Assembly: GCF_032118995.1 (NCBI RefSeq)
Contig: NC_092648.1
Location: 24,394,059 to 24,458,058, forward strand
Direction: 5' to 3'
DNA: 64,000 nucleotides
DNA from: Asterias amurensis
Taxonomy: Eukaryota; Echinodermata; Asteroidea; Forcipulatida; Asteriidae
In this document: piece after piece, positions 3,524 through 60,100 of the stretch
How positions within the stretch are numbered: position 1 is the first letter of the stretch
How the letters are laid out: every line of letters begins with the position of its first letter
The notes under the pieces: generated by a model
What the model saw: the letters and a program-made list of their open reading frames with translations, nothing else
Databases searched by the model: none
Told to the model about the DNA's origin: nothing
Position numbers and translations under genes: made by a program

Positions 3524-4075
3524 AACACAATGCCTTGCAACGGTCGAGTTGGTCTTTGAAAAGCGTTCTGTAACCGTTTGTTATAAAATGCATATTCTCC
3601 AGAAGACGATCAGAGCATACTGATCGAAACGTCGAGTTAAACCAACGGTTCTTTTCAGAACCACCCCAACTCATTTAGAGATTATTACATGGTGTTACCG
3701 CAAACTCCTCTATATCTTATCTCCACCATGCAAAGTTTCAAATCCTACTTAAAATGCATATTGTTAGAAAGATATTGTAAAAGTAGGTTACAATGATCTA
3801 CACAAATATGCCCCGAAATTGCGTGGATTTCTATTTACCTTGTCGACTAACACGGTCGGTCATTTATGGGAGTCAACATTTTGACTCCCATAAATGGTCG
3901 ACCGTGATAGTTCGCGACGTAAAAGGAAAACCGTGCAATTTTGAGTGATACTTGTGTGGATCAGTATATTCTACTTTTACAACTGTTACATCTTTCCAAC
4001 CATATGCATTTTATAACAAACGGTTTTAAACGCTTTTAATAGACCAACTCGTCCGATCCAAGGCAACGTGTTCCT
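3524..4075. mobile_element. TTAA MITE, family 1 (long hairpin), carrying a nested insertion
   Basis: Left arm around GTTGCCTTGCAACGGTCGAG, right arm CCGATCCAAGGCAACGTG; the element is an almost complete palindrome with its centre at GGGAGTCAACATTTTGACTCCC near 3885. The left terminus is decayed. It is interrupted by the insertion at 3597-3750. Confidence 0.8.
3597..3750 (+). mobile_element. Short Penelope-like 3'-end fragment with hammerhead-like motif
   Basis: Flanked by a perfect 12-base duplication AAAATGCATATT (3585-3596 and 3751-3762), which shows a retro-type insertion. Near its start CAGAAGA is followed by a GATCAG/CTGATC stem and GAAACGTCGAG, resembling the CUGANGA ... GAAA core of hammerhead ribozymes found in Penelope-like elements; one core base (T to A) deviates. 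Related fragments are at 25370, 43334 and 52812. Confidence 0.55.
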
Positions 4076-5854
4076 CTAATTTGTCACAAGAAGTATCACA
4101 TCGTTTTGTACCCAGTAACACTCGATTTTAAAAATAAATCACACATGTTTTAACAAGCTGTATACCAAGGACTGCTCTTTGAGTTCCGATTCTTGTTTAA
4201 GAGTGTTGTTTGATCATCTTATGAAGCGACGTCCTAATTTGTACACGAAAGCGCAGCAAGGACCCAATCCGTAAGATAAACCGGATCCATGTTGGTTAAA
4301 TTCCCCACTCGGTTTCACTAGACAGTATAGAAACTCACGGTCTAAATGCATCTCGAGGAAATGTCTCTGAACCTTCCTATTGTCCATGTACTTAACATTT
4401 TTCCCATATACATGTGTGTACTTTGTACACAAATTTCCCTTTGGAGCATCCAATGTAGGCTTCAGATTTGTCCACTTGGAGACCTTTTATTTTAGGTTTT
4501 CTTGTGACCTGATTGTACCGAATAGAGCACACAAACACACATGTTTTAAGACATACGAAGTGACAAGTGCGTGAAATAGCTGTGCTGTATTCAATTTATA
4601 CGAGTAGTGCAGAGGTACATGCAGCTGGCCAAATTAACACAGTAGGCAATAAAGCGGTAGCTCAAAGACATTGTTGAGTTGAAAGTTGCCTTATTTTAAG
4701 CTTGATCGGCCAGGGATAGACCAAGGTACAGGCAAAAAGGAATGAATAGTTCTGCTGAGTTTTGTTTGTATCCTCATTTATAATAGAAGGTATGTGATGG
4801 GATCATGCCTCAAATTGAAGTTGGCACACGGTTAGTGTTGCGACTTTGCGTCTCGGGCGGCAGAGGGCGTGCTTCGTGTGCGCGAAAAAAAACGAATACT
4901 GCGCTTTAGGAAGCCGTTGTTTAAAAGCACGTGACAAATCTGATGTAGTCGATAACTTTCACGCTGCACAGAATTACAGGTTTTTAGGGTTCAGAATCAA
5001 TCATTATTGGCCTAAAGTCCAAGGGAGGGTTGCTCAAAGGGAGGGACTGCTATTTATATTGATACAGATTGAACATCCTGCACTTGTCATAAACCAGGCA
5101 ACGAGAGAACAGATTAAAACTGAACAGAAGTACAGTAGACCTACTACTCTGGTGTGCGACGGTGTTTTGCTTGGTGTATGTATCACTATAAATAAGTTGG
5201 GCAACTTAAGGTCTCTGATTAACAGTTCTACAGTTAGATTGCCATGAGAAAGATGTTTGGGTACAGGTCCATTGCAGATTTGTCTAGAAAGAAAACATTA
5301 GGATAATAACAAGAAACAATAATTCAACTTACATCAAATGTATATCAAACATTTTCCCTTATTTGCCTCACTTTTTGAGTTTCATAATACAACTTGGTGT
5401 TGTTCCACGGCCGAACGCAGAAAAAAATACTTAAGTGATGATGGGAGTAAGTAATTTCCCATGAGTCATTTAAACGCCCCCACCCCCCCCCCCCCCCCAT
5501 TTAAACCAACCTCTGGTAAAGGAGAAAAATGAGTTTTGTACTATGATAACTTTTGTGACTTTTTTCTGTTTTATTTCTATTTGAATTGCTCCCCGAATAG
5601 AAGCCATTAGGCCCAACAGTATATGACAAAAGGGAAGAAGAAGGTGGAAAAAAGAAAGAAAAAAAAAAGACCGAAATGGTGAAACTTAAGTTAAAATCAG
5701 AAGTCTTTGTGTGAATCTGTTTGGGGGTATACCCCGTTGTAGTGCTTGTGAGTAGGTATACATTATTCAACTTGGTGTTGTTCCACGGCCAGTATGTGAC
5801 ATAGTATAACTATTTTGTCCTGATTGTCTAGGGCATGAGTAGACCATAGATTAA
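4076..5854. other. Intergenic; includes segment 4787-5138 unique to copy 1
   Basis: No gene seen. From 4787 to 5138 the sequence has no counterpart in copy 2, where a Penelope-like element sits instead. A 17-base poly-C run is at about 5484-5500. The 23-base string at 5390-5412 recurs at 5768-5790, at the point where a 442-base block of copy 2 is absent. Confidence 0.6.
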
Positions 5855-11780: not shown

Positions 11781-12298
11781 TGTATTCGGGCAAACACATT
11801 TACAAGTACGTGAAGTATACTTGTAAACAAATATTTAAAACAAAGTAAAACAACAGCGGGATACCAAGAAGAGCTTTTAAAAACTAAAAAAAGTAACAAC
11901 AAAATAACTATCGCCGAAAGGCGTATGTCTCCTAAATCCGAGAAATAAAAAAAAAAAAACATAAAAAGCACATAAAAAAATACAAAACCAATTAACAACT
12001 AGAATACGAAAGGCCCAACAAGCATAAAAAGGAAGCGCGTCTACCAGTGTTGAAAAATAGCAGACGCGCGCGATCTAGCCGTAGCTGTAGCCGAAGTCGC
12101 CGTTTCGGACACGGCCTAAGTTAAAACTGTGTACAAACTTCTCCTGATAGCGCCCTCTTTTGAATCCTCCTCCTACACCTACGTTAATCCGACCCCTACG
12201 TTAATTTCCAATGAGGAGGACTGAATTTCCGGCAGACAGAATTCCCTGGTACCCGGCACTGATCTCCAGGGGGACAGATGTCCCGCCACAACCCCACT

Positions 12299-12425
12299 CA
12301 ACGAGAACGAAACCGATAAAAATGCAAGCATTCGATTGGTTGAAATGCTCCACGCAGAATACGTCCACGCTCATTCAACCAATCGAGGGCGTGCATTTTT
12401 ATCGTTCTCGTTTTCGTTCTTGTTG
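12299..12425. repeat. Inverted repeat / hairpin in gene B intron
   Basis: Arm ACGAGAACGAAACCGATAAA at 12301 pairs with sequence ending at about 12420 (TTTTTATCGTTCTCGTTTTCG); CGATTGGTTGAA pairs with TTCAACCAATCG. Probably a small foldback MITE; no target duplication identified. Confidence 0.7.
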
Positions 12426-12762
12426 TCGGGGCTTGTGTGACCGAACCTCTAATCAATGTTCCTTCTTTTTACAGTTGGGTCACCAAGACTTTTATCCGAA
12501 CAAAGGAACCTTTATGCAACCAAAGTGTTTGTGGAAGGTCGCTTGCAGTCACATGCGGGCATATGACTTCTACTTATCCAGCATAAAGAACTTCGACATT
12601 CAGCCCGGCCAAACCTGTTCCTTCGTCACTGAAGCGTGCAGCGGGACGACGTGCAGCGGTACATGTCCCCGGATGGGCATCCATGCTGAGAAAGGAGACG
12701 GCTCTGGAAGTTTTCGCATCACGATGACATCAAGCAACTGCGGGTGTGCATACATTGTCTAG

Positions 12763-19913: not shown

Positions 19914-22546
19914 ATGATTGAACTAACACGTATCCTGATTGGGTCGCTGGTACTCCTACTCATGGTCAACGAATCCTACCAGAGTAAGACAGTGAAATGT
20001 ATTTCCAAATAATTACTCATATAATAACTGTGAGGAATTTTGCTAATTTGAAATTCTAACTCCACAATCTTATAATCCGGGATAGAACTCGCCATGTGTT
20101 CTGAGAAGGGCGTTCTTCATGTATGCAAGGATGTGGAATATCTATACTAAATAAATCTGTAACCTACGCCATATTGGATAAGAAGCACGCCATCAAAAAG
20201 CTCTCGGACTTAGACTTATTTATTTTTTATTTTTTTGCGATTCTTATTTGTTTTTCTTCGATCAGTTATACGATTTTCATTTTGCCCATTTCTCATTATG
20301 CCCCTCATCATGAAGACATTGCGTGATATCATGCCCCTCATCATACCTGACTCCTTTGATTCAATTGAGTCATGTTTCATTAGAAGAAATAACATTGTGA
20401 TTCGCACTACTTAATGTTCTTTCTTTATTATGATACATTTCTAGCCACATGTTATAACAGTCAGGGCGTCCGCGATACCGATGGCCGCTTCTGCTTTGAT
20501 ACCAGCTTGTCTTGTTGGTCCAATAAGTTGAAGCCAGCTCACCTGTCAGACATAAACAACGAGTTCTACCTGTTCACCCGTCAGGATAATAGTGACAGAC
20601 GCTGCAGTTATTACCAACAACAGTTAACCTGGGACGACCCCAACACATTCGATGGTTTCCACAGCTACAAGAAAACAATTGTTATAATCCATGGCTGGCG
20701 AACAAGCGTTTGGAACGGATACTTCATGTCACTCTGTCATTCGTTCATGAAATTGGTATGTATAACTTTTGTGTCTAGATACCCTCCGCAGCGTTCTCAT
20801 TGGTTGTTCGAGTGATGTATGAAGTGCGTTTTGGCGACCCCAACCAAGCCCAACCGAGAAACGAGTCGGTTACCGTTTGGTTTGAACAGCCTCTCTATCG
20901 CGGTTTAAACGCGAAAACGCTCGACCGATGACTAAACAGTTTCTGGTTTCGGGTCGCCAATACGCACTATATACAAATACCCTTTCGCACTCCATTGCTC
21001 AAGCGCTTACTGTTGATTGGGGTGCATGCTGGCCTAGCTAGCGATCAAACTTGATCATTTATAGCTTAACCAAAGTGCATCTCATTCCACGTCTAACGTG
21101 CTCGTAACGAGTATTGACGATAATATGTGCGTAAATCCGGGGTGGGGATATTGAGGATTGCATCAGTCACACTTCGTATTACATACGGCAGGCCGCGTAT
21201 TTTTTTGCCCAGGACAGATGAGGCCACTTACCATTTAATGGGCGCATGCTAAGTGGCCTCATCTCATCTGGGGCAAAAATACGCCAGCAGGCCAAATCTT
21301 ATAACACTAATAAAACAATACTGTCACATTATACAGGGCAACTACAACATCATCATGGTGAGTTGGCCATCGTTCCGATGGGACTTACTTACTTATCAAA
21401 AGAGTGTGATGGATATCGTACTGGTTGCAAAGGAACTTGCCTTACTGCTGGAGGAGTTGCACGAGCATCGAGGTTTACAGTACGAAGACGTCCACATGTT
21501 GGGGCACAGCCTTGGTGCCCATCTGGCAGGGTACACTGGCATGTTCTTAAACGGACAGATCGGGCGTATTTCAGGTATACAGCTAGACTTGAGTTAAAAT
21601 CTAGCTGAGATCGCGATTGTTTTAGCTGAATCGGACAGGCAACCCCAGCCCGGCACCTCGCGCGTTTTGCGTACTAACACATTATGGATTGATGATAAAA
21701 ACTATTAAAACATTCAATATATTTCGATACTTTCAAATCACACTTCCAGTGGGTTACGATCGGGCAAAGCAATCTGGGAAAGAAAAAAACATGGCTAGGC
21801 AAGGTTGTACACCGATGGGAACGAAGTTGATATGATTATCTATGGTGAGAACTATTTTGTGCCTTTTTGTTTTCTTTTCTTTTTTAATTTCGGGTCAAAT
21901 TGATCGGCCAACCAAAAATTTTACACATAGCAATTATTATTTGGCTCTTTATAATTGTGAGTTTACCCTATACAGGCCTCGACCCTGCGAGACCTGGTTT
22001 CAGGGAGTACCTCGGCACTTCAGATTGCCATTTGGATAGAACTGACGCTGACTTTGTTGATGTCATCCATACGGATGGACCACTCCATCTGTTCGGACTT
22101 TATGAACCGGTAAGTTTTTGTTTAGCCCGAAAAAATAGCCTCAAAAGAAGATGTGTTCGGCTGAAGCTGGAACCCCTAATTAAAAAGTAAATTGGCATAT
22201 TGTGCACCCAATCTTTGTGTTAAATTAATGATATGAATGAATACCTCTGACACAGGTGGGTCACCAAGACTTTTATCCTAACCATGGCGCCCTAGCGCAA
22301 CCAGGCTGTCCTTGGATCCCCCACTGCAGTCACATGCGAGCAATTGACTACTACTTATCCAGCATGAAGAACTTCTACATTCAGCCCGGCCGAACCTGTT
22401 CCTTCGCCACCCTGACTCGGATGTGGCCGCCCCGTTGCAGCGGGACATGCCCCCGGATGGGCATCCATGCAGAGAAAGGAGACGGCTCTGGAAGATTCTT
22501 CATCAGGATGAATTCCAACAACTGCGGATACCGCTTCCTTATGTAG
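19914..22546 (+). CDS. Lidless pancreatic-lipase-family enzyme (phospholipase A1-like), gene C, complete
   Basis: Five exons: 19914-19983, 20445-20755, 21337-21574, 21976-22109, 22256-22546. All have AG/GT borders and compatible phases (1,0,1,0), giving 347 residues. Residues 1-22 form a signal peptide. IIHGW lies in exon 2. GHSLGAH in exon 3 places the nucleophile at Ser185; GLDPARPGF gives catalytic Asp209; CSHMRA gives His277. The lid loop is only C269-PWIPH-C275, whereas classical triglyceride lipases have over 20 residues there; short lids are typical of secreted phospholipase A1 enzymes. No C-terminal PLAT domain; the tail is Cys-rich (CSGTCPRMGIH). The protein is probably a secreted digestive or defensive phospholipase. 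The true substrate cannot be read from sequence. The acceptor before the ATG exon implies a non-coding first exon upstream. Confidence 0.92.
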
Positions 22547-26759: not shown

Positions 26760-27128
26760 TGTGTGTACTTTGTACACAAATTTCCCTTTGGAGCATCCAA
26801 TGTAGGCTTCAGATTTGTCCACTTGGAAACCTTTTATTTTAGGTTTTCTTGTGACCTGATTGTACCGAATAGAGCACACAAACACACATGTTTTAAGACA
26901 TACGAAGTGACAAGTGCGTGAAATAGCTGTGCTGTATTCAATTTATACGAGTAGTGCAGAGGTACGTGCAGCTGGCCAAATTAACACAGTAGGCAATAAA
27001 GCGGTAGCTCAAAGACATTGTTGAGTTGAAAGTTGCCTGATTTTAAGCTTGATCGGCCAGGGATAGACCAAGGTACAGGCAAAAAGGAATGAATAGTTCT
27101 GCTGAGCTTTGTTTGTATCCACATTTAT

Positions 27129-27864
27129 AAGCGAACGTAGGGTCCAACTTGCTATCAACAGGGCTCTCAACGTACCTCGTCATACTCTGTTGACTAACAC
27201 GGGAGCTAAAAAAGCTCCGACCAATAGAGTTGCTTTGGTCACCACCTTCCACCCCAAACTACCCAAACTTCCCTCAATTCTCAATAATAACATGCCTATA
27301 CTTCACTCCTCCAGCAGGCTACACTCAGCAATCCCCGAGGTTCCCATGGTTGCATTCCGCCGCCCTAAGAACCTTGGTGACATACTAGTCAGGGCCAAAC
27401 TGCCCCCAGGTACAGTCCAAACACAACCCCCGACAGATATACTGGGCTGTCACAAATGTACCCGTTCCAAATGCAGAACGTGTCTGCACATTAAGCCCTC
27501 ACTTAAGGTGAAGAGTCATACCACTGGCTCTCCATACAACATCAAGACCGACTCTGAATATAGCACGTCTAATGTAGTCTATGTCATATCATGTAAGAGA
27601 TGTGGGTTACAATATGTGGGAGAGACTAAGACCAAACTTAGTCTTCGCTTTGCGAATCATGTCTCTTCCATGAAGACTAAGAAACCGTACACAGTCTCTA
27701 TCCACTTCAACAGCCCCAATCATAGTGTCAGTGATGTTGAACTTCTGGTGATTGAAGCTTGCAATGGTGATGACACACACCGCAAGAGTAGAGAATCACA
27801 CTGGATTCACCAACTCAAGACAGTCAAACCCTTTGGACTTAACATAAACACTGGTGTTAAATAA
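27129..27864 (+). CDS. C-terminal part of Penelope-like polyprotein: linker, zinc knuckle, GIY-YIG endonuclease
   Basis: About 245 codons, open to TAA. From N to C: an RT-thumb/linker region with VALVTTFHPKLPKLPSIL and PMVAFRRPKNLGDILVRAKL, typical of Penelope-like elements; a CxxC...CxxC stretch, CHKCTRSKCRTC; then NVVYVISCKRCGLQYVGET (the GIY-YIG equivalent is VVYVI...QYVGE), an Arg in LSLRFANHV and a His, ending ESHWIHQLKTVKPFGLN. The nuclease would nick target DNA during insertion. The reverse transcriptase is absent, so there is no autonomous activity. The first few in-frame codons before 27129 belong to the flank. Confidence 0.85.
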
Positions 27865-28563: not shown

Positions 28564-28914
28564 CTATTTTTAAAATCATCATACCTTTGATCTTGCTATT
28601 CTTATTAATTGACCATTGTTAGTTGCATCATGATGCAACTTGCTCTCTAATCCTACCCTTTCATGTCTCCCTGCATTGTTGTCGAACAATACATTTACCA
28701 CTTTTATGGTCCAGTAAACCCATCCTTTCATTCTAAACATCCTTTGTCCTCGCCACTTTACTCCTATTGGTTCATAGCCACCAATATTGTCTCTGAAATA
28801 GAAACTTTGATTGGCTGTTATTTTCCCGCCTCTTTCTGGATCCTTTCCTTAATCCCTTCCCCCCTCTCTTTTTCTATAAATGGATATGTATTTGTTTGTA
28901 CTTGTATTATGCCT

Positions 28915-28941
28915 CTGAAGAAGGTCCGGATTGGATCGAAA
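28915..28941 (+). ncRNA. Hammerhead-like ribozyme motif at Penelope-like element end
   Basis: CTGAAGA (fits CUGANGA), then a GGTCC/GGATC stem with a short loop, then GAAA at 28938-28941. This is the arrangement known for hammerheads in the terminal repeats of Penelope-like elements. Stem I and the cleavage triplet cannot be assigned with confidence, so activity is unproven. Confidence 0.45.
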
Positions 28942-29567
28942 GCTACTACTCTGGTGTGCGACGGCGTTTTGCTTGGTGTATGTATCACTATAAATAATTT
29001 AGGCAACTTAAGGTCTCTGATTAACAGTTCTACAGATAGAGTGCCATGAGAAAGATATTTGGGTACATATATATATATTTGCAGATTTGTCTTTAAAGCA
29101 AACATTAGGATAATAACAAGAAACAATAATTCAACTTACATCAAATGTATATCAAACATTTCCCCTTATTTGCCTCACTTTTTGAGTTTCATAATACAAC
29201 TTGGTGTTGTTCCACGGCCGAACGCAGAAAAAAATACTTAAGTGATGATGGGAGTAAGTAATTTCCCATGAGTCATTTAAACGCCCCCCCCCCCCCCATT
29301 TAAACCAACCTCTGGTAAAGGAGAAAAATCAGTTTTGTACTATGATAACTTTTGTGACTTTTTTCTGTTTTATTTCTATTTGAATTGCTCCCCGAATAGA
29401 AGCCATTAGGCCCAACAGTATATGACAAAAGGGAAGAAGAAGGTGGAAAAAAGAAAGAAAAAAAAAGACCGAAATGGTGAAACTTAAGTTAAAATCAGAA
29501 GTCTTTGTGTGAATCTGTTTGGGGTATACCCCGTTGTAGTGCTTGTGAGTAGGTATACATTATTCAA

Positions 29568-31434: not shown

Positions 31435-32757
31435 GGACACAAAATATTTTGAATTGTACAGTTTAGATTGTTGTTAACCTTTCTCAGAGGGGCTCCATAA
31501 TACCTTAGCTATATTATGTAAACATCTCTGAACATATTTTCGAATTTACCTTTTGACCACAAAATTTCGATTGTGCTGCGACATCCTTTAAGTTAAATTA
31601 AAAACATATTACGGAACGTCTTTTGGCAACAATGTCATGTTAAACATAGTGGTGCGTGTCAGTTGGTGAGTATTATTGGTTCTGATCAAATAATTACAAT
31701 GTGAACGTTACTCTCGTTGTTTTAAGCTTTCAATGCGATTATTCATGTGCAACCATACTATATTTCAACAGTTTGTAATAAAATTATGACTATATCTAGA
31801 TAATATGTTTCGAACTACATAGTCAATATAAGTCATCAGAACTTGAGTTTAAAATAGCATAATTTTCGAGAGTTTCCGAAAAAGACTCTAAGAACGTATT
31901 AGGCATACGAAGAATTGTGTCATTAGTTTTAAATCAAATTGTATGCGCATATTGTACGAAGAATGGGTTAAGTTGTACCTTTCGTCAAATTTGAAGACAC
32001 CTGTGCCTGATGACTTTATAAATCGGGAGTCCGTCATTCCCCCCCCCCAACCCCTCTAAAAGTATGTTTTAAATACCCGTATCAAATAAGCACGGTCATT
32101 AAGAACCAATCGATCGGTATACCTGCTATAGCCGAATGATAATCAACATTTCAATATCATTAATTCACTCAATTAAAAAGTAATTCTCACTACTGCTGTA
32201 ACTGTTTATCGTTAATGGCAATTAACATAAGCAAGGTGTAATCACGGAGCAAGGTGTAACTAGAGGTCCTGACTCTTTGAAGGTGCTTCAGCACAAACAA
32301 GCAGCTAAAGCACAACATTAGGCTCACCACAATAAAGTTACCAACCAAAGTGCCATGCCATGCCATATTTGTATTGACTGCAAACATTCATTCAAACTAA
32401 AGTTTGGAAACGTACACCAGGTATAAGTCACTCAAATTGAACGTGCCAACGACTATCGAATTACAAATTTTACACTCGGCACCATTATGAAACATTGTGT
32501 GATAAGCCCACGGTATCCGATTTTACGGTCCACAATTACCTCAAGCATTATGTAATGACGTCGAATCGGGTAGGCGTCCCTGATTTTGACCCCTCCCCAC
32601 ACAAACCCCACAGCCAACCATACAATATCGTTGCACGTTTTTCTATATTATTTGGTGTTAATTTGTATATTTTGATGTTCCTATATGTGCCAGTTTTACT
32701 TGTAATGTGTTCTTGTTGGACTGCCTGACCGCCATTGTCAGTGTATTCAAGCTTTAA
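31435..32757. other. No gene recognised
   Basis: Duplicated flank; its first 500 bases are deleted in copy 1. A poly-C run is near 32040. Confidence 0.55.
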
Positions 32758-32953
32758 AGTGCGTGGAAAATGAGAAGTTTCCATTCAATCCACTTTCAAA
32801 ATCTAGTTGCTGATGTATCAAACACAATATATAAGTATACAAAGATAATTTCTCGAAATTGTAAAAAGATTAAAACAAGGATTTTTTAAAAAGCCCGCGC
32901 GTCGCGATTCTGAAAATGCAGAGGTCACGATTGGTTGTTGCGCAATGGCTGTG

Positions 32954-32968
32954 ACGTCATAAAGGAGA
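32954..32968 (+). promoter_or_regulatory. Subterminal CRE-like motif, left end
   Basis: TGACGTCA core within ACGTCATAAAGGAGA, 196 bases from the left terminus and about 100 bases before the ATG of the P2X7-domain gene. The same 15 bases recur inverted at 38289-38303. Confidence 0.6.
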
Positions 32969-33067
32969 CTGACTAAGTCTGGTACCCATACAACTCACGC
33001 ACGCTACGCAAGCCCCACATGTAATGTGCGTGTATTATCCGCCGATTCTTTCCTCGACGAAGTAAAC

Positions 33068-34481
33068 ATGTCAGACTCTGAAAACTCCGGTGACGAATTT
33101 TGGGAAGAAATCAGTGTAGATTCTGATGGTTTCAGTGAAGGATCAGAAAGTATCTCAGGGGGATCGGGAGACAGCGATGACGTTGAGCCAGACGATGAGG
33201 ATGAGGAGGTGGTTCGTGGGGCTGAACCATATAGATTCGAGCCACTGGCAAGACCACGCCAACAGCAAGGTGACGCTGCTGCTGCTGATGACGCCGACCC
33301 CGATGAAGAACAAGATGGGAATGACCAAGCTGCCAACAACGAGCGATTGAACAATACCGACTGGTAATTTTAATTTCTGAATAATTGACATAGTATAGTT
33401 CACTGATTTTACATAGCCTGTGTATGTAGGCTTTTGCTGATATTGATGAGGGCAAAACACGTACCCATGTGTGTATACCTGAATTTACCTGGTCATTTGG
33501 CTCATAAAATCATAGGCCTTTATACTCGCTCGTCTATATCTACACAATCATACATCATACAATGCAAAGACAGCTTTGTTTGTGAGTAGTTTTCTGTAAC
33601 TGTTAGTGTCTAATTTGTCATGATGTCAACCAAGTGAAATTCAGTTGTGTACATGAATGTTGAGTTAAATTCCATGCCACAGTTCTCTAAAAAATGTCTG
33701 ACTATTTAATTGTCTTGCTTTTTGAATTGAAGGTGTTCCTGTGGTAAATGTGTGGTGATGGAGTTCGTTCACAACTGCATTTGCTGTAAAGAGATTGCAG
33801 CCATACAGGAGAAAATCGTTCATACTGGAGTCGACACTGAGGGTTTCAGTTGTTTTACAGACCATCCCTGGTCTTCGGCTACATGTCTGAACCCCGGAAC
33901 ACTAGAGACAGCGTACTATGCGTACCGACAACAGTAAGGGGCTAGAGCTGTTGAAGGTGACCTTCCACGGTAAGAGTTAATTTTCAATGTTTTTAAATTT
34001 CAACTTTTTTTTCTGTAAGATTTTTGAACCGAAATAGAAACACACAACCTGGTTATTATATTCAGATAATCTATTTTATGAGAAACGTGACATACATGAA
34101 CATGTATCAGGACACTTTTCCCACCCCCAAAGTAAAGACGACTCTCTTGATAAGCCCAATATTCCTTGTTTGAGCCCATTTCGTCAATCCCACTTATCCT
34201 GGTAACACTGATACTGGCTAGAACACTGGTCAATTCAACATAACAAATGGACAAATGATATACAGTTTGTTGATTGTAAAACAGAACGGTATTATTTTTT
34301 ATTTCACAGAAAGTACAGACATGTGTCTTATCGGCAGGTGATCAGGTGGTGTTATGGTTACCTTGGAAGACACAACAGAGTGCCCCTCCCAGCATGCATA
34401 ATGGGGATAACCAGAACGACTTTCCCTGATGAAGGAGGCAACTATGAAGGGTTTAGATTTCCTGACCTTGATGACATGTAG
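33068..34481 (+). CDS. P2X7-type cytoplasmic ballast-domain protein (stand-alone)
   Basis: Three exons: 33068-33363, 33733-33933, 34310-34481. All have GT/AG borders and phase-match, giving 222 residues. Residues 1-95 are acidic and low-complexity (MSDSENSGDEFWEEIS, later ProArgGln-rich). From W99 the chain matches the C-terminal domain of vertebrate P2X7 receptors: WCSCGKC (99-105), CICC (114-117), TDHP with C150, then YRHVSYRQVIRWCYGYLGR (168-186), LPAC (192-195) and the end motif FPDEGGNYEGF (204-214). In P2X7 these cysteines bind zinc and the domain also binds guanine nucleotide. Here there is no channel or membrane segment, so this is not a receptor; nuclear or cytosolic action is inferred only. 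The 33068 ATG is preferred: the open frame extends upstream but has no earlier in-frame ATG. It lies inside the transposon, with intact splice sites. Confidence 0.88.
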
Positions 34482-35912
34482 ATTTACAATATAGTAACAC
34501 ATAACTGGATATCAGTAACACTTTTACATGGTTTAGGAGTAAATATACACTTTACAATGTAAATATGATGATAGTCTTTCAAAAATGAGTTTGAACGGTC
34601 AAGCGTTTTTGTAAAGTTAACAAAAGAGGCCTTTGCATTTTTTTATTATTTTTTTACACAAAATATTTTACATTCAAAGTTTTGGACTAAATATATTTGA
34701 GGGAATGCCATGTTAAATTCATTTTTGTGATGCACTCTTGGATGAGTAGGAAAAATAAAACAGAATTTGTACTTTACAATAAAAAAAATGTACAATTATA
34801 CGGCACAAGTACATGTGTTTGTTAAAATTCAAGCTCACCACGATGTCAAATTTAAAAAATATGTTGTTGCATTTTTATTTAAAAATGTAGTGGTAGCCAT
34901 GGCTAGTTATATTGGTTGAGTTCAGTCGAATAGTATTCTAGTGTGCAAACCAAGTAACAATAAATGCATGCTGAAATGAATGCATAATGAATATCAAAGG
35001 ATTATGCTCTGTTGTGTCGTCACCCCCACCCACCCACCCACCCACCCATATATACTGCAGCAAATGGGTCCCTACACTGACAAATTGAGAAAATATTATG
35101 ACTGACGATAATCCAAAATTTTTGTTTGAGGAAAAAGGGTGTGAGATGCCATTTCGACTTTTTCAATACCCCAAGGCACAGGTTGCATTCATGAACCTTT
35201 GTTTTGGAAGCATGTTTTTTTTTATCTTGAGAATTTTGATAAAATCACTGTCGGAGGCATCTTCACTGTATTACCTGTAACAAACTAAACTACATCTTCC
35301 CACTGAGCAGTGGAATGCAGACACACCAATTTCATGGGCAAAATAAAATTTCAAAAAAAATCTTTCACTTAGTTCAAAATTGGCACTGCGATTTATTAAA
35401 TCTTGTGTTTTTTTTATTTTTAGTACAACAGGTTGGTCGAGTCATTAACAATCACCTTAACAAGGAAGTCCTGCTTACAAAGAGTAAATTCTTGGGTCCC
35501 AAATATCCAGTTCTCTTTGTGTTTCTTTGACAGTTGAGTGTTTCACACAGAACATCTTATTGTGTTTCTTTTTAGAAATATGAAACTGACCGCATTTGAC
35601 GAATTCTTGTGTTTTGTTCAGAAGTGGGCAACAGTATAATAAAGATTGTGCACGTAAACATTTAGCTTATTTAAACCAGGCAAACGCAGCATTCCAAGTT
35701 GATATTTTTTGTGGCAATTTTGTAGGTCGGTACATGCCTTGCCAGTATCTACTGTAATGTTTCACAAGAATTTATCAAAGGTATTAAAACCAAAAAACTT
35801 CCAATTTTGTGTTAGTTGCAACAGTCCTTATCCACAAGTTTTCAATGTACCCTGTTGGTTTACACACAACTTTAACAAAATCACAAAGAATGTGCTAGCG
35901 GCAACTTGGCGT
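34482..35912. other. Interior of the transposon between the two converging genes
   Basis: Non-coding. Holds AATAAA signals for the + gene near 34755 and 34780 and a (CCCA)n tract at about 35021-35047. Small open frames have no recognisable content. Confidence 0.6.
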
Positions 35913-38121
35913 TTACTTCTTGCGTTTCTTTCTGGATGAAGGTTCTCCCTCTTGTTGGCCCTCAGTATGCCTTTTGTCAGCATGCTTGCTCTTCTTCTTC
36001 TTCTTTGTTGCCATACTTGCTGGAACAACCACACCTTCAGTCCCCTCTGGTCTTCCTACAGGCTCCACCGCTTTACCAAACCTTGACACAAATTCTTTCA
36101 CAGCCTGTGTTTTGTCAGGGCGAGTTACCTTTGCTGTTAGATATCCAGGATTTGCCTTCAGCTCCGGGTACTTGGCTCTGGTGTCTGCCCCAGCTGCGCA
36201 GAGTAACAGAACCTTTTCCATGATCCTCTTGCTGAAATCTATAATGTAATAAAATCAATTATAAGGACACAACCCACAAAGTGCACATAAAACTTCATGT
36301 GGATTTGCCTAATCAATTGGTTAACTTTGATGCATGCAAAATATTGCTAAAGGAATGTGAAGGGTGAAAAACTAGGCGCAAATTGTGAAACAAGGAAAAT
36401 TTTATACACAAAAATAAGGGGGTGCCCCCAAAACAAAGAAGTTGTTCATTTGAAATAAACTGTAAAAAAAGGAGACTTGAACATCAACTGTATCTTACAG
36501 AAATTTAGTCTTTGTACTGTGCCCCAAATAAAAAGTAAAAATTACTTAGATCAGTTGAAGTTTATTTGCATAGAAATTATTAATCAGGACAAGAACACCT
36601 CTTGTGCCAGCATATGTATGTACTTGCACACAACCATGCACTTACTGTGAGTGGCCTTTATGAGCACCTTCCTGACAGTATATCCCCCCGTGGTCTGCTT
36701 GGCCCTTGGATAGCGAATGCTGAATGCTGGATTGCCCTCCCTGTCCATGGCCTGTGCCCTGTTGGTGTTCTCGTTGAAATGAAGCGCAGCAAGGTATATT
36801 CTGAAATAAACAAGGATGTACTTGTATGATAAAATGCATGGTGTTGCAGTATGTACTGCCAAAACCTTGGCCGAACCTTTAAATGAAAGCTAGTGGAATG
36901 CACAAAATACTAATGCACTGTACAGGTACATTTTGTTTTTACACCTTAATCATCCAACCTAAAAGTTTCACCCAATTATGATCTACTCTTTGAAAAATTG
37001 CAAAAATCAAGGGCAGGTCCCATAAATTAGTTAGGGGGGTCAGGCCCATAGTTATTCTTTCTAGTCAATTCCCCATCCCACAGCTTCTAAGGCATACACT
37101 ACAGATAGCCTTGGGAGATCTGCAGTGCACCTCAACACCCCCCCCCCCCCCCCGCAACCACCCTCTAAAGTATATGGTTAAACCTAGTATGTAGACCAAA
37201 TTTGCTCACCTGCATAACATGCCCTCATACGAAAATGAAAACATCTTAGGCGCGTACTGGTTAATAACCGAGTGGAAGCCTTCCACCGAGGATGTCTGCA
37301 TGGATGGCGACAACATTTTCACATCCTTTCTTGTCCACGTGCTGTCCAGAATGGCTGCAACTTTCTTGGCAGAAGCCGACCCTGAAAAATATTCAACAAA
37401 AGGTGTACAAACCTTTAGTGACAAATACAGTGTCTGCTGGTCCATGAGAGAACAGTTTTAAAATTCAATTACTTCAAGCTGAATGAAGTCCATGGCATGG
37501 CATTGACTTAAAAAAAAAAATAGAAAAAATTTTCAGATAAATTTTTGTATTAATTACTGTTAAATTTACAACCGCATTGAAACTTTCCCCAATGACCATG
37601 ATTATGAATAATTGGACAAACGAAATCGGTGGTTTGTACATACCCTTGCTCTTTCCCTTTTGAGGTATGCACCCCCAGAGCGCTTACGAGGATCTGTACT
37701 CCATGTCTTCTCTGCGGTGCTTGTGCTAGGGCCGGGCTCATCCGACTGAGTCTGCACATCGGCGGACGTCGAAGGAATTCCCGTCGAAGTACTCGGTGTC
37801 GGACGTTGATGCATGACCGATACTGTTGGTTGCTTGGGATGATGCTTGGGACATACCCAACTTTAAGTCTGAACCGAAATGGCAAGCCAAGACTTCGCTT
37901 GTTCTTAACTGTTTCGTCAATACAATCATCGGTGAAGTGAGCCGGCCGAGCAGACAAAAGATGAACTACCTACATGTAGTGTGAAGTCGGAACGTGTGTT
38001 GTTGACGAAACGAACTCATGCTCGCTGGTAGTGCACTATCTTGGGGAAACAACAACCAAAATACTTCGGGATTTTTCAGTATATTACGTGTGCACCCGCC
38101 TACAACACACGATTTGGGCAT
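35913..38121 (-). pseudogene. THAP-domain / Kolobok-type transposase gene, core deleted
   Basis: Minus strand. Exon 1 (38121-37644) opens MPKSCVVGGC and has FPQD, matching the start of a C2CH THAP zinc finger. The rest of the finger (VRFVNNTRSDF, then AHFTDDC) lies in other frames, so the finger is interrupted at least twice. A Ser/Thr/Pro-rich linker follows, ending at a GTATGT donor. Exons 2-4 (37381-37210, 36800-36646, 36238-35913) are open and phase-matched: LSPSMQTSSVEGFHSVINQY, APKMFSFSYEGMLCR, IYLAALHFNENTNRAQA, then a Lys-rich tail. This is the C-terminal signature of THAP transposases whose full proteins have a DDE core before it. Only about 260 bases separate exon 1 from exon 2 and their phases disagree, so the catalytic exons are missing. 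Confidence 0.75.
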
Positions 38122-38288
38122 TTTGATAGTGTCGGCACTGAACTTTAGATACACAAATCGAAGATTAAATTATACTAAACTGGGATACAACCAGAGGATA
38201 AAATTGTGAGCCCGCATCGCTACGGCGAAAACAAAGCATACACACACACGTTGAAGCTCCTAGTGTACTTCCGCGTCACGTGACTCGA

Positions 38289-38303
38289 TCTCCTTTATGA
38301 CGT
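38289..38303 (-). promoter_or_regulatory. Subterminal CRE-like motif, right end
   Basis: Perfect inverted copy of the left-end 15-mer, 208 bases from the right terminus and about 170 bases before the ATG of the THAP gene. A CACGTGA box lies next to it at about 38275-38282. Confidence 0.6.
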
Positions 38304-38752
38304 TTTTGGGGTCACGTGCATATCATTATCTCAATGTCCTACTTTTACGTTTTGGGGGCAGAGGGGGTCATGCGAGTGCTAGGGTTGTCGCTTCTTTTTC
38401 AAGGTCAAATACACAGATAATGGTAAAGTAATATTTTATTTGGAATCAGTAGGGCTTGTTTTATAAAGTATATGTGTTTCCGTCCCTCAAAGCTATCATT
38501 TTTCACGGCCTTTAAAAAAAAAAAAAAAAACTTGCAATTAATATTAAAACAATAACATTTTTTATGTTAATTTTTTGTATTACTATATGAACTATTTTTA
38601 ACTTGTAAATGTACTTTTTCGCCCTGCTTGGCCGCCAGTGCAGTGAATAAATAAAACAACAACTTTGAGTTTGATTCAAAGCAAATAGAAGAATACAAAC
38701 CATGGAGAACAGACCTAGGCCTATACATAGAACAATGTGAAACTACTCTTAA

Positions 38753-41527: not shown

Positions 41528-41575
41528 TAGTCTTAGCCCTAAAGCCAAACCATAGTAAGACTTAAGAGAGCAGAC

Positions 41576-42538
41576 ATGGAGAGTGAAGGTACCACTGCCC
41601 CGTGGTTTAACATACTAAGGTGTGTGCTGTTTGGTATCACGGCCATCCTCATCATCGGTGGTAACACAGTGTGTCTTCTCGTACTACGGCGTGTCAAAAA
41701 GATCCACGCGGTAACCAGGCTCTTTATGGCGTCACTTGCAGCCTCCGATCTCCTCAACGGTATCTTTGTGACTACTCCCTTGATCGTGTCCTCGGCCATG
41801 GATCGCTGGCCGTACGGTGAAGTTGCCTGTGATATCTACGGTATCGGCAAATATCTCTGCTATTACTCCGGGCTGTTCTCATTGATCGCAGTCACAGTGG
41901 AGCGATACATCATGGTCGTTGCACCTCTACGATACCAACACATCGTAACCATAGAGCGTGCTTGGAAAAGTTTGATTGGTATATGGGGCCTCAGCATCGC
42001 TATCATGATACTGTATGGCTTTGGAGTCAACTGGAAAGGAGAAATAGACGACGAGGAGGACAACTGCAGTCTCGGTGTCACCAACGGGGACTTCTGGTAC
42101 TACTCGGTGCGTTACGGAGAGTTGATGTTCATCGTAATTCCAGTTCTTCTCGTCACGGTATTGTACACGCACATGTGGTTGAAAGCCCGTCATCACATAC
42201 GCGGTGCAGGAATGGACCGAACCACTGAGCAGAGACAAGCCGATAAATCCCGTCAAGTCAACCGTAAAGCTGTGGTCACTTTCCTCATCGTCACAACGGC
42301 TTTCTCCGTGGCCTGGGCGCCGGCTGCAACCCGAAAGCTCTACAAGTTGATCACTGGAAACTCTGATACGTACTACACAGAATTCATTGCCCGGATGGCC
42401 ATGCTGACCAACAGCTGGTTAAATCTCTTCATTTACTACATGCGTAATAGCTACTTCAGAGAAACTGCAAAACGATACTTCAGGTTGTACTCGCGTTGCT
42501 GCCGCAGAGCAACGCCTGTAGTTACCCCGGCATCTTAA
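41576..42538 (+). CDS. Class A (rhodopsin-like) G-protein-coupled receptor, intronless
   Basis: A single exon of 320 codons with seven hydrophobic segments. TM1 carries GNTVCLLVL, TM2 LAASDLL, TM3 ends in the ERY motif (VERYIMVVAPLRY) used for G-protein coupling, TM6 carries FSVAWAP (FxxxWxP), and TM7 carries NSWLNLFIYY, where the usual NPxxY proline is Leu. Cysteines before TM3 (ACDIYG) and in extracellular loop 2 (DNCSLG) can form the conserved disulfide. A short basic, Cys-rich tail (RLYSRCCRRATP) may be palmitoylated. The ligand is unknown; the sequence is of the aminergic/opsin/peptide-like alpha class without a diagnostic pocket Asp that I can place. Echinoderms have many such lineage-specific intronless receptors. 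Confidence 0.9.
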   Translation: MESEGTTAPWFNILRCVLFGITAILIIGGNTVCLLVLRRVKKIHAVTRLFMASLAASDLLNGIFVTTPLIVSSAMDRWPYGEVACDIYGIGKYLCYYSGLFSLIAVTVERYIMVVAPLRYQHIVTIERAWKSLIGIWGLSIAIMILYGFGVNWKGEIDDEEDNCSLGVTNGDFWYYSVRYGELMFIVIPVLLVTVLYTHMWLKARHHIRGAGMDRTTEQRQADKSRQVNRKAVVTFLIVTTAFSVAWAPAATRKLYKLITGNSDTYYTEFIARMAMLTNSWLNLFIYYMRNSYFRETAKRYFRLYSRCCRRATPVVTPAS

Positions 42539-57100: not shown

Positions 57101-60100
57101 TCAAATGTAATACAATTAGGCCTACACTCTTGGAAAAAAAAACAAAATATTTGGGTGCACTGGGTTTAAGAAAGGATCAAATGTAATACAATTAGGCCAA
57201 CACTAAAAAAATTGGGTGCACAAATTGGCACGATCTTACGGTTCCCCGAGGTACATAAGATTATAGCTACAACTTTATACCCCACCAACAGCTAACTACA
57301 TTAAGAATGTTTTTCATCTATTCCTATCTCACTAAATAAGTTTACTATAACCAAAATTTAAAAAAAAAATCAGCTGCATTTAGTCTTCCTTTGTTTGTTT
57401 TCATTAAATTGTTTGATTAAGTCAATCATAAACTTTCTAATAAGAAGATACATCAATACAAAATAAAGAACGTATGAGAAGAGACAATATTATATGTACC
57501 GACTCGAACACATTTCTGACATTATTTTTAAATGGTACAATGATGAAAAAGCTTAAAGTGATGACACTGTGACAGTAAGTTTACAAAGTTAAAAACCTGA
57601 AAACACAGTAAAGCACAGGTTCAAGAAGCGACAATACAATAAATTTAAATATACACAAAAGTATGACAGAGAAAAATGGAAAAAAAGGAAATTAGAACAA
57701 TCATTTGACACAAATAGACAGAAAAAATACATTAACCAAATTTAAAGCAATGCCAGCAACCCAAACATCACTTGAGTGTCCCTCATCCTTTCAAACAATC
57801 TCTCCAACCACCAACCGTACAGTCAATCAGGAAAATGAATTTTCATTCAGCTAATGCCAGAATGAAGAATAATACCACACATGAATAGGATAAAGGAATG
57901 TTATTCAAAAATAGAAGTACATGTACCAAATTAACAAAAATTGCATTTAGGCTTTGGAATAAAAAAAACAACCAGAGATTTGGAAAAAAGTTACACAAAG
58001 CCCTCCAGCACTATTACAGAGAACCAGGTTTTTTTCTGAACCTCGACTTAAACCCGATTCATACTTCCTGTGAATGCGAATATTCAACGTAATTATTTGT
58101 TGCGAATTTGTGAGGGAGTATTCGCACTCACAGAAAGTATGAACCGGGCATCAGGCTCCGTCTCCAGGCTCCTAAATTTATGATGGAGCCCAAGTCGAAG
58201 CTGTTGCCCAAGTTAATGCCCAAGTCGGAGCCCAAGCCGAGGTTTGGTGAACAGGCTCACAGATGGATTTGAACTGGCCTTAAGTACTAACCTCCATTCT
58301 TTCAAGCTGCATGACTAGTGAATTCTTCTCAGTGCTTAGAGCTTCTAACATCGTTTGTTTCTGTATTAGACTCTCAGTGAGGGCACGAAGCCTGGACTCA
58401 AGCTCTATCTGCGATGTACTACTTGCACTTTTTGCCATCATCTGCAGAATACAAATAAAACATTACTTAAAGTTTTGTTTATTGCTATATCACAACAACA
58501 TTGTAAATATCAATTTTTGTTTTACCCACATTTTACAGCACTCAGAAAAGTACTGAGTATACAGTGCTTACACCCATCGGTGTATATGGGTTCAACCAAA
58601 ACTTTTTTTTTTTTCCCATCCCCATTGCAAACATCCATCTATTTTAAATCATTTAAAATGAAAATAGGGGAAAAAAGAGAGCTGTGAAAAAGAAGAAGCA
58701 AAGACTGAAAAAAAATACTAAAAAAGGAAAATGTTAATGAGCGACTGCCGTCATGAACAAAGCAGGCATGTGGCTGTACATGGAATTAAATTTGCAACCC
58801 AGTTACTGCACGAGTGCATGCTGGCCTTCACATCACAAACGAAGAATTTATTATCACATTGTGATCAATGCATTAATTGGGTTACACACAATACACAATA
58901 TCGAGCCAGGGTTTCAACAAATTTAACAGTCCAGTACTTTCAGACGAACAGCATTCAAATACAATCGTCTGCAGCAATTACAGCATTTGTCGTGTCAAAA
59001 AAAAGGAGGTTACATAAATGTTTATTAAAGCATTGTAGAAAATTACATTCAATGTTAAGACTTGACGGAGAAGGGGGGGGGAGAAGCTGTCAAAAGGTCC
59101 AGTTTAATAAGAATGAAGAAATAATAAAATAAAGTAAAAATAATAATATTAATAAACAAAGGTACAGTAAAGTGCCAAACAAAAGGTACATTTTATTCGA
59201 GCAATGTTGGGGGAAACAGCACAACTTGATTGTCCATTTTGTTTCAGAAACTCTTACGAGTGTGTGTAAATTGAGAAAATGTGCACAAATATTCTAGTAG
59301 GTTTAGATTCTTTCATTTTGGCTTTTACCCATATAACAATGAGTGTTATCACTGTCTACTCAGTACTTTCCCGAGTTATGTGACATGAGTTCTCACAGGC
59401 ATATTATTCAGGTGGGATTCAAACCCACTACCTTTGCAATTCTAGAGCAGTGTCTTACCAACTAGACCACCGAGATTGCCAGATAGCTAGAGGCAGGTTA
59501 AGATTTGTATATAAAGATTTGATTGAATTTAAAGCTAGCCAGTCATTTTTTACCTGATTTCTCAGTTTCTGAATGTCGTCCTCTCTATCCTGCAGCCTCG
59601 TCTGCAAACTCATCTTTGATTTGTATCCTTCATCCTCGGCATACCTCAACTCTTCCGTCTTCTGTCTTAAGTCTGTCTCTACCTCTCGTAGTTGTTGCTC
59701 CGTGGTGGACAGCTGGTCTTCCAGGTCTCGGATCTGATCCTGCGCCGTATCGGATTCATTCTGCTGTAGGACTTCAAGCTCCTGAAGAAAAAGAATTAGC
59801 AACAGTTGAATCAATGTTTATTTCACTGCCTTTCATCTCTGTGGACCCAGTTCAAATCACACCTCAGACTGATGCCTTTGCATATGAATTTGGGTTTTTA
59901 GTCCCTGCCTACCAGATTTTGAGGTTTCCCCCCATGGGGGTTTTCCTCCCACATTTAAAACTCTTTCTATTCATTATGTTACTAATGTTAATTGTGCTGT
60001 TGGACGTCAAAATCTAAGAAAATATAGGGGATGTAACTTCAAACAGTAATTTGCAGTTGGCTTGTTTTTGCAGTCGGCATTATGTTTGAAACAGAACAAA

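Follow-up and report, generated by a model that had tools for sequence, protein, structure and literature searches.

How does a gene for the C-terminal cytoplasmic "ballast" domain of the P2X7 receptor come to lie, without a channel part, between inverted termini in a sea star genome? The locus is an apparent transposon in a stretch of 64,000 nucleotides from Asterias amurensis (GCF_032118995.1, contig NC_092648.1, positions 24,394,059 to 24,458,058, forward strand; called the window, whose numbering is used unless a contig is named). A prediction made from the sequence alone had described a TTAA-flanked insertion of 5754 bases that carries an apparently complete three-exon ballast gene and a converging THAP/Kolobok-like transposase gene, the ballast domain perhaps travelling as cargo or as a second gene. 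We conclude with high confidence that the element belongs to a young Kolobok family of the Kol0 type that is non-autonomous, a judgement on its identity and not on the role of its second protein, KolX. In the parts of Kojima and Bao (2022; PMC9587614) available to us, Kol0 elements encode KolX as their second protein, which resembles P2X7 residues 476-595, a region whose fold binds two zinc ions and has seven cysteines that are conserved; there KolX takes this ballast fold, and P2X7 is concluded to have arisen when a P2X4-like gene became fused to KolX.

At 32754-38515 the border layout is TTAA, AGTGCGTGGAAAATGAGA ... TATCATTTTTCACGGCCT, TTAA. The two ends pair at 16 of the 22 terminal bases, and an exact 15-base inverted repeat (32954-32968/38289-38303) lies about 200 bases inward of each end. 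Taken alone as evidence for a transposon, these ends are suggestive only: among 23,506 TTAA pairs spaced 3-9 kb apart in the window seven score at least 16, the element's own pair among them, and with gapped scoring 0.57% of 20,000 sampled pairs score as high as the element's own. This ranking is not decisive; the decisive test of the borders was second copies.

Using the left 743 bases of the element as query, we searched the genome (23 contigs, 491.5 Mb) and obtained at least 17 rows, namely the window itself, 14 matches running from query base 1 to base 724 or 743, a single 94-base match and a weak internal one; the row at C21:9881093 is a weak one. Fifteen of the 16 non-window loci were fetched for inspection. 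Both ends are present in 13 of them, reproducing the predicted borders 32758-38511; eleven of these copies measure 5706-5763 bases and two are shortened (3530 and 4862 bases). TTAA borders the right side of all 13 and the left side of 12 (ATAA in copy L017), and 5'-RR...YY-3' termini are present as AG...CT in the window and in every one. Of at least 20 rows given by the search with the right end, 14 are full right ends, located at the window and the 13 two-ended loci, and four are other weak rows. The 24-base flanks are unlike between copies, which are thus separate insertions and not one duplicated block; since they occupy TTAA sites with differing flanks, the family has spread by transposition. 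Pairwise divergence among copies is 0.09-1.75%, and the window element differs by 0.09% from copy L009, whose flanks are unlike its own.

The transposase survives in pieces. Three minus-strand C-terminal exons are open and match P0015 at 45% identity over 151 aa (E 5e-40); P0015 is a pipefish protein of 757 aa that contains THAP and Mutator-like domains. By its domains and motifs P0015 is probably a Kolobok transposase, which relates the pieces to transposases of that kind, and the SVEGFHS motif of exon A is likely to be the third (E) catalytic site. P0015 residues 113-607, the catalytic core, match nothing in the window beyond two rows at chance level (E 0.33 and 2.2), and the 13 other copies give no match at E <= 1e-3. 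With the core absent from every one of the 14 two-ended copies, its deletion is a feature of the family, which is therefore non-autonomous. A DDE transposase with the C/DxxH motif, one of the marks of the Kolobok superfamily, is accordingly absent from the window and from all 13 copies, as in a deletion derivative. Of the predicted transposase gene, then, the C-terminal part stands and a THAP part is weakly visible (E 0.001), but the core has no counterpart.

The plus-strand gene, spliced as the original prediction implied, encodes a protein that matches P2RX7_C (PF20478) with 50.8 bits (E 2.5e-13), and on this match it qualifies as the ballast-fold second gene, KolX, of a Kol0 element. Pfam gave no P2X channel family in the eight open reading frames (ORFs) of the element or in the spliced protein; the P2X7 C-terminal domain is present as predicted, and the joined channel and ballast of a P2X7 receptor are not. 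The best-matching P2X7 chain is that of rat (6u9v, residues 468-594; 25.9 bits, E 6.9e-5), and the closest protein relatives come from Asterias rubens (91% identity over 94% of the query) and then Patiria miniata (54%). When the A. rubens relative was modelled, P2X7 filled the first eight of 46 Foldseek rows, but none reaches E <= 0.001 and the mean predicted local distance difference test score (pLDDT) is a low-confidence 52.7, so that the assignment of the ballast fold rests on sequence.

Contrary to the original prediction, the ballast gene is not complete. Its splice sites (GT at 33364 and 33970, AG at 33731 and 34308) are conserved in all 14 copies, and read with these shared sites the frame is open in none. 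The lesions are an exon 2 stop at 33935-33937 in seven copies, an exon 1 stop at 33326 in four (L015, L018, L020 and L021) and exon 1 frameshifts in three.

These results give the following history. An ancestor carried two convergent genes, one for KolX, a free ballast-fold protein, and one for a THAP-DDE transposase. All 14 two-ended copies lack the transposase core, KolX has been broken by lesions that differ between subfamilies, and the family has spread recently by insertion at TTAA. Mobilisation was presumably by a transposase acting in trans, from an element that lies outside the assembly or has somewhat different ends; our searches of the assembly gave no element that combines these ends with a core.

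Several observations weigh against this account. Pfam reported no THAP or transposase family above its cut-off in the minus-strand ORFs of the window. An autonomous element with the window's ends was not found in the assembly by the left- and right-end searches, whose row counts are lower bounds. Three candidates for a core-bearing element with these ends were rejected: C8:11295173 and C3:24234389 are only left-end fragments, and 7 kb at C21:9892516, a right-end fragment, match neither a ballast protein nor P0015. Synonymous and non-synonymous changes among the copies number 13 and 26 in KolX (over 149 and 556 sites) and 3 and 18 in the transposase exons (over 144 and 498 sites), counts that leave room for weak past constraint on KolX. 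Finally, a GTAAGG donor at 33934, the one used in the original prediction, overlaps the exon 2 lesion and in the seven stop-bearing copies bypasses the stop in frame at a cost of 12 codons, making a cryptic splice possible.

This donor is what favours an alternative in which KolX still functions and the copies are selected for a shortened ballast protein without a transposase, as it both preserves the frame and skips the stop. The frame is then open, however, in only three of the 14 copies (the window, L009 and L013, which have no further lesion), whereas the other exon-2-stop copies (L010, L011, L016 and L019) have further lesions and the four copies listed above retain their exon 1 stop. Moreover, the share of variable sites equals that of the introns in the KolX exons (0.052 in both), with 0.044 in the spacer, 0.033 in the transposase exons, 0.048 in the transposase introns, 0.052 in the THAP part and 0.049 in the ends. 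We consider selection for such a protein highly improbable.

A genome search with PF20478 gave 27 rows, which we grouped into 25 loci: 14 of the window family, five beside a THAP transposase with core matches, and six others. The five lie on contigs C7, C2, C18 and C10 (two loci), each with a P0015 core match within about 3.2 kb and the two genes converging as in the window. The C7 element (inner span 11588845-11596818) appears complete in outline, with TTAA on both sides, terminal inverted repeats (TIRs) of about 220 bp that are 96% identical, three KolX exons, and a transposase with THAP, GGDGRADSPG, SDRH...DVWH and SLESFHS. The C18 element has the same layout and a second copy on C10 at 99%; its ends were not found, the match to C10 extending beyond the compared stretch. 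A P0015-related locus on C4 was rejected as a further partner of KolX, there being no KolX in 6.3 kb at that place.

These loci bear on the suggestion that the ballast gene is host cargo that a Kolobok transposon acquired within this lineage. In its favour, the TIRs do enclose the gene, and the gene shares homology with a host receptor's tail, but five other loci have a ballast gene converging on a transposase with core matches. The TIR-bounded C7 protein, moreover, is only 34-44% identical by stretch to the ballast protein P0001, which makes the pairing of KolX and transposase old, and the available text of PMC9587614 reports KolX as the second Kol0 protein in many phyla. Uptake as cargo is thus very unlikely, and KolX is a native second gene. 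Since several families retain KolX next to the transposase, its most likely role, which we advance tentatively, would be that of an accessory nucleic-acid-binding factor of transposition. The least credible alternative bears on the distinction of Kolobok from piggyBac and draws on the TTAA flanks and a statement in PMC9587614 (as far as available), but the ends are AG...CT, the 5'-RR...YY-3' mark by which that source separates Kolobok from piggyBac, the exon 2 cysteines are conserved among the copies, and the transposase pieces match a THAP/Mutator-like protein.

As a non-autonomous Kolobok copy, the window element agrees with the Kol0 lineage of Kojima and Bao, as far as that account was available, in TTAA, AG...CT ends and the combination of KolX with a DDE transposase (in outline at C7, as remnants in the window), and differs from it in lacking the catalytic core and in its broken KolX frames. 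Xenopus Kolobok (XKol; PMC6004289) likewise has AG ends, TTAA and a transposase with THAP, DDE and H2CH; unlike the present element, the available text on XKol has no occurrence of the term KolX and treats transposase genes, domesticated or possibly active. The ballast domain of P2X7 (PDB 6u9v, 8tr5 and 9e3m) shares the zinc-cysteine pattern and the tail with the window KolX, which differs from P2X7 in having no channel part and gives a match much weaker than that of a gene on contig C8, described below, to 9e3m and 9e3q. Among viral contigs, 13 stretches fit a pattern and none encodes a relative.

The original prediction thus holds for the element, its TTAA sites and the identities of both genes, and fails for the completeness of the ballast gene and for the transposase core. 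The ballast domain as second gene of Kolobok-type transposons is borne out by 14 family loci and five transposase-adjacent loci of 25, and the further copies that it proposed to look for within the same TIRs were found (13 two-ended), none with a core; the idea of cargo is not borne out. The original prediction knew of no description of such an element, yet KolX, its ballast fold and the link to P2X7 were already published in 2022 (PMC9587614, in the parts available), the only paper found by a search on the term KolX. The element in the window is real and its borders are well defined; it is an ordinary member of its kind, already explained in print.

The part worth following is what the other ballast loci say about P2X7. 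The six remaining loci are a gene on C8, its broken copy on C10, C4:5319200, C5:22913168, C16:13290569 and C12:3582422. The C8 gene (G000:C8:19894159-19895132, minus strand) has two main exons with open frames and no transposase match nearby among the matches listed. Its protein scores 82.4 bits against human P2X7 (9e3m) and 84.7 bits (E 7e-23) against chain 9e3q (species not stated), whereas the best scores of three KolX proteins against P2X7 chains are 25.9, 33.1 and 35.8 bits. For some proteins the gap is less wide: among rows of the first of the two trees described below, the C8 protein (82.3) is followed in its match to rat P2X7 by P0060 of a sea urchin (53.8) and P0025 of a sea cucumber (42.4). 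The C10 copy (G000:C10:10231900-10233400) is 86% identical over 1478 columns and keeps the intron, with several stops; its similarity begins at a sharp border without TTAA (one duplicated border, in the 2.4 kb of the C8 locus examined).

We built a first tree of 47 ballast proteins (42 chosen by us from 84 of ballast type, plus five typed rows) and a second of 42, from which five long-branch rows were dropped, P0060, on a long branch in the first tree, among them; 39 rows of the second are labelled KolX without a check of each for transposon location, and the row HUM_P2X7 is chain 9e3q. In both trees, which are unrooted and sample one such gene, C8 groups with the two P2X7 rows at 100/99, the branch being a long one (2.2-2.4 changes per column). 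A direct transposon origin of the P2X7 tail, for which the original prediction had put forward a tree of ballast domains as a check, is less clear than the available text of PMC9587614 states, since this genome also has a second class of ballast gene that lies much closer to P2X7.

Rump et al. (2020; PMC7016195, in the parts available) describe stand-alone ballast proteins across animals, sea urchin and acorn worm included, their genes linked to two markers from sponge to echinoderm; this linkage fits host genes better than transposons, and "transpos" has no occurrence in the main text. We give an even chance to the view that animals have two ballast lineages, the mobile KolX and a stand-alone one (C8), and that P2X7 captured the stand-alone one and not transposon KolX directly. 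If true, this would amend the direct KolX origin published in PMC9587614 (as far as available), and with two lineages the source of the P2X7 tail would become a matter for a wider tree to decide. Transposon-encoded ballast proteins, confirmed here from one sea star genome with copy borders, may also account for "P2X purinoceptor 7-like" entries in databases whose length leaves no room for a channel.

Table 1. Positions of the parts of the Kolobok-type element in the window.
Feature	Position	Strand	Remarks
Kolobok-type element	32758-38511 (5754 bases)		5'-AG...CT-3' ends, TTAA either side
Left TTAA target site	32754..32757	none	sequence
Left TIR	32758..32782	+	5'-AGTGCGTGGAAAATGAGA; AG start as in Kolobok ends; first 22 bases identical in 13/13 two-ended copies
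Subterminal inverted repeat, left arm	32954..32968	+	
KolX exon 1, acidic N-terminal part	33068..33363	+	open in window; stop or frameshift in several other copies
KolX exon 2, zinc cysteines CSCGKC..CICC	33733..33969	+	in-frame stop 33935-33937, ahead of donor 33970 kept in 14/14 copies
KolX exon 3, KYRHVSYRQ...GFRFPDLDDM	34310..34481	+	PF20478
Transposase C-terminal exon C, with stop	35922..36238	-	P0015 734-755
Transposase C-terminal exon B	36646..36800	-	P0015 match
Transposase C-terminal exon A	37210..37381	-	62% identity to P0015 608-646; SVEGFHS
THAP-like remnants and linker, several frames	37602..38121	-	P0015 1-26 and 56-112, E 0.001; catalytic core missing between 37381 and here
Subterminal inverted repeat, right arm	38289..38303	-	
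Right TIR	38487..38511	-	ends ...CACGGCCT-3'; last 22 bases identical in 12/13 two-ended copies, one change in L017
Right TTAA target site	38512..38515	none	sequence

Elsewhere in the window, a GIY-YIG endonuclease domain (27106-27864, plus strand; PF01541, E 9e-8) resembles part of a Penelope-like retroelement. Plus-strand reading frames at 4819-5247 and 28651-29049 have a common stretch, TTLVCDGVLLGVCITIN-LGNLRSLINSST, perhaps a dispersed repeat. A match to the Rfam histone 3' untranslated region stem-loop (3642-3686, plus strand) scores 35.3 bits against a cut-off of 34, and its hairpin, GGTTCTTTTCAGAACC, may belong to a repeat; an Rfam tRNA match lies at 59405-59476 on the minus strand (39.8 bits against 29). 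Lipase-family stretches (PF00151) occur at 12205-12762 and 20393-20815 on the plus strand, the second under the curated cut-off, and a single-exon frame for a rhodopsin-type G-protein-coupled receptor of 331 aa (PF00001, E 1.4e-43) lies at 41543-42538 on the same strand.

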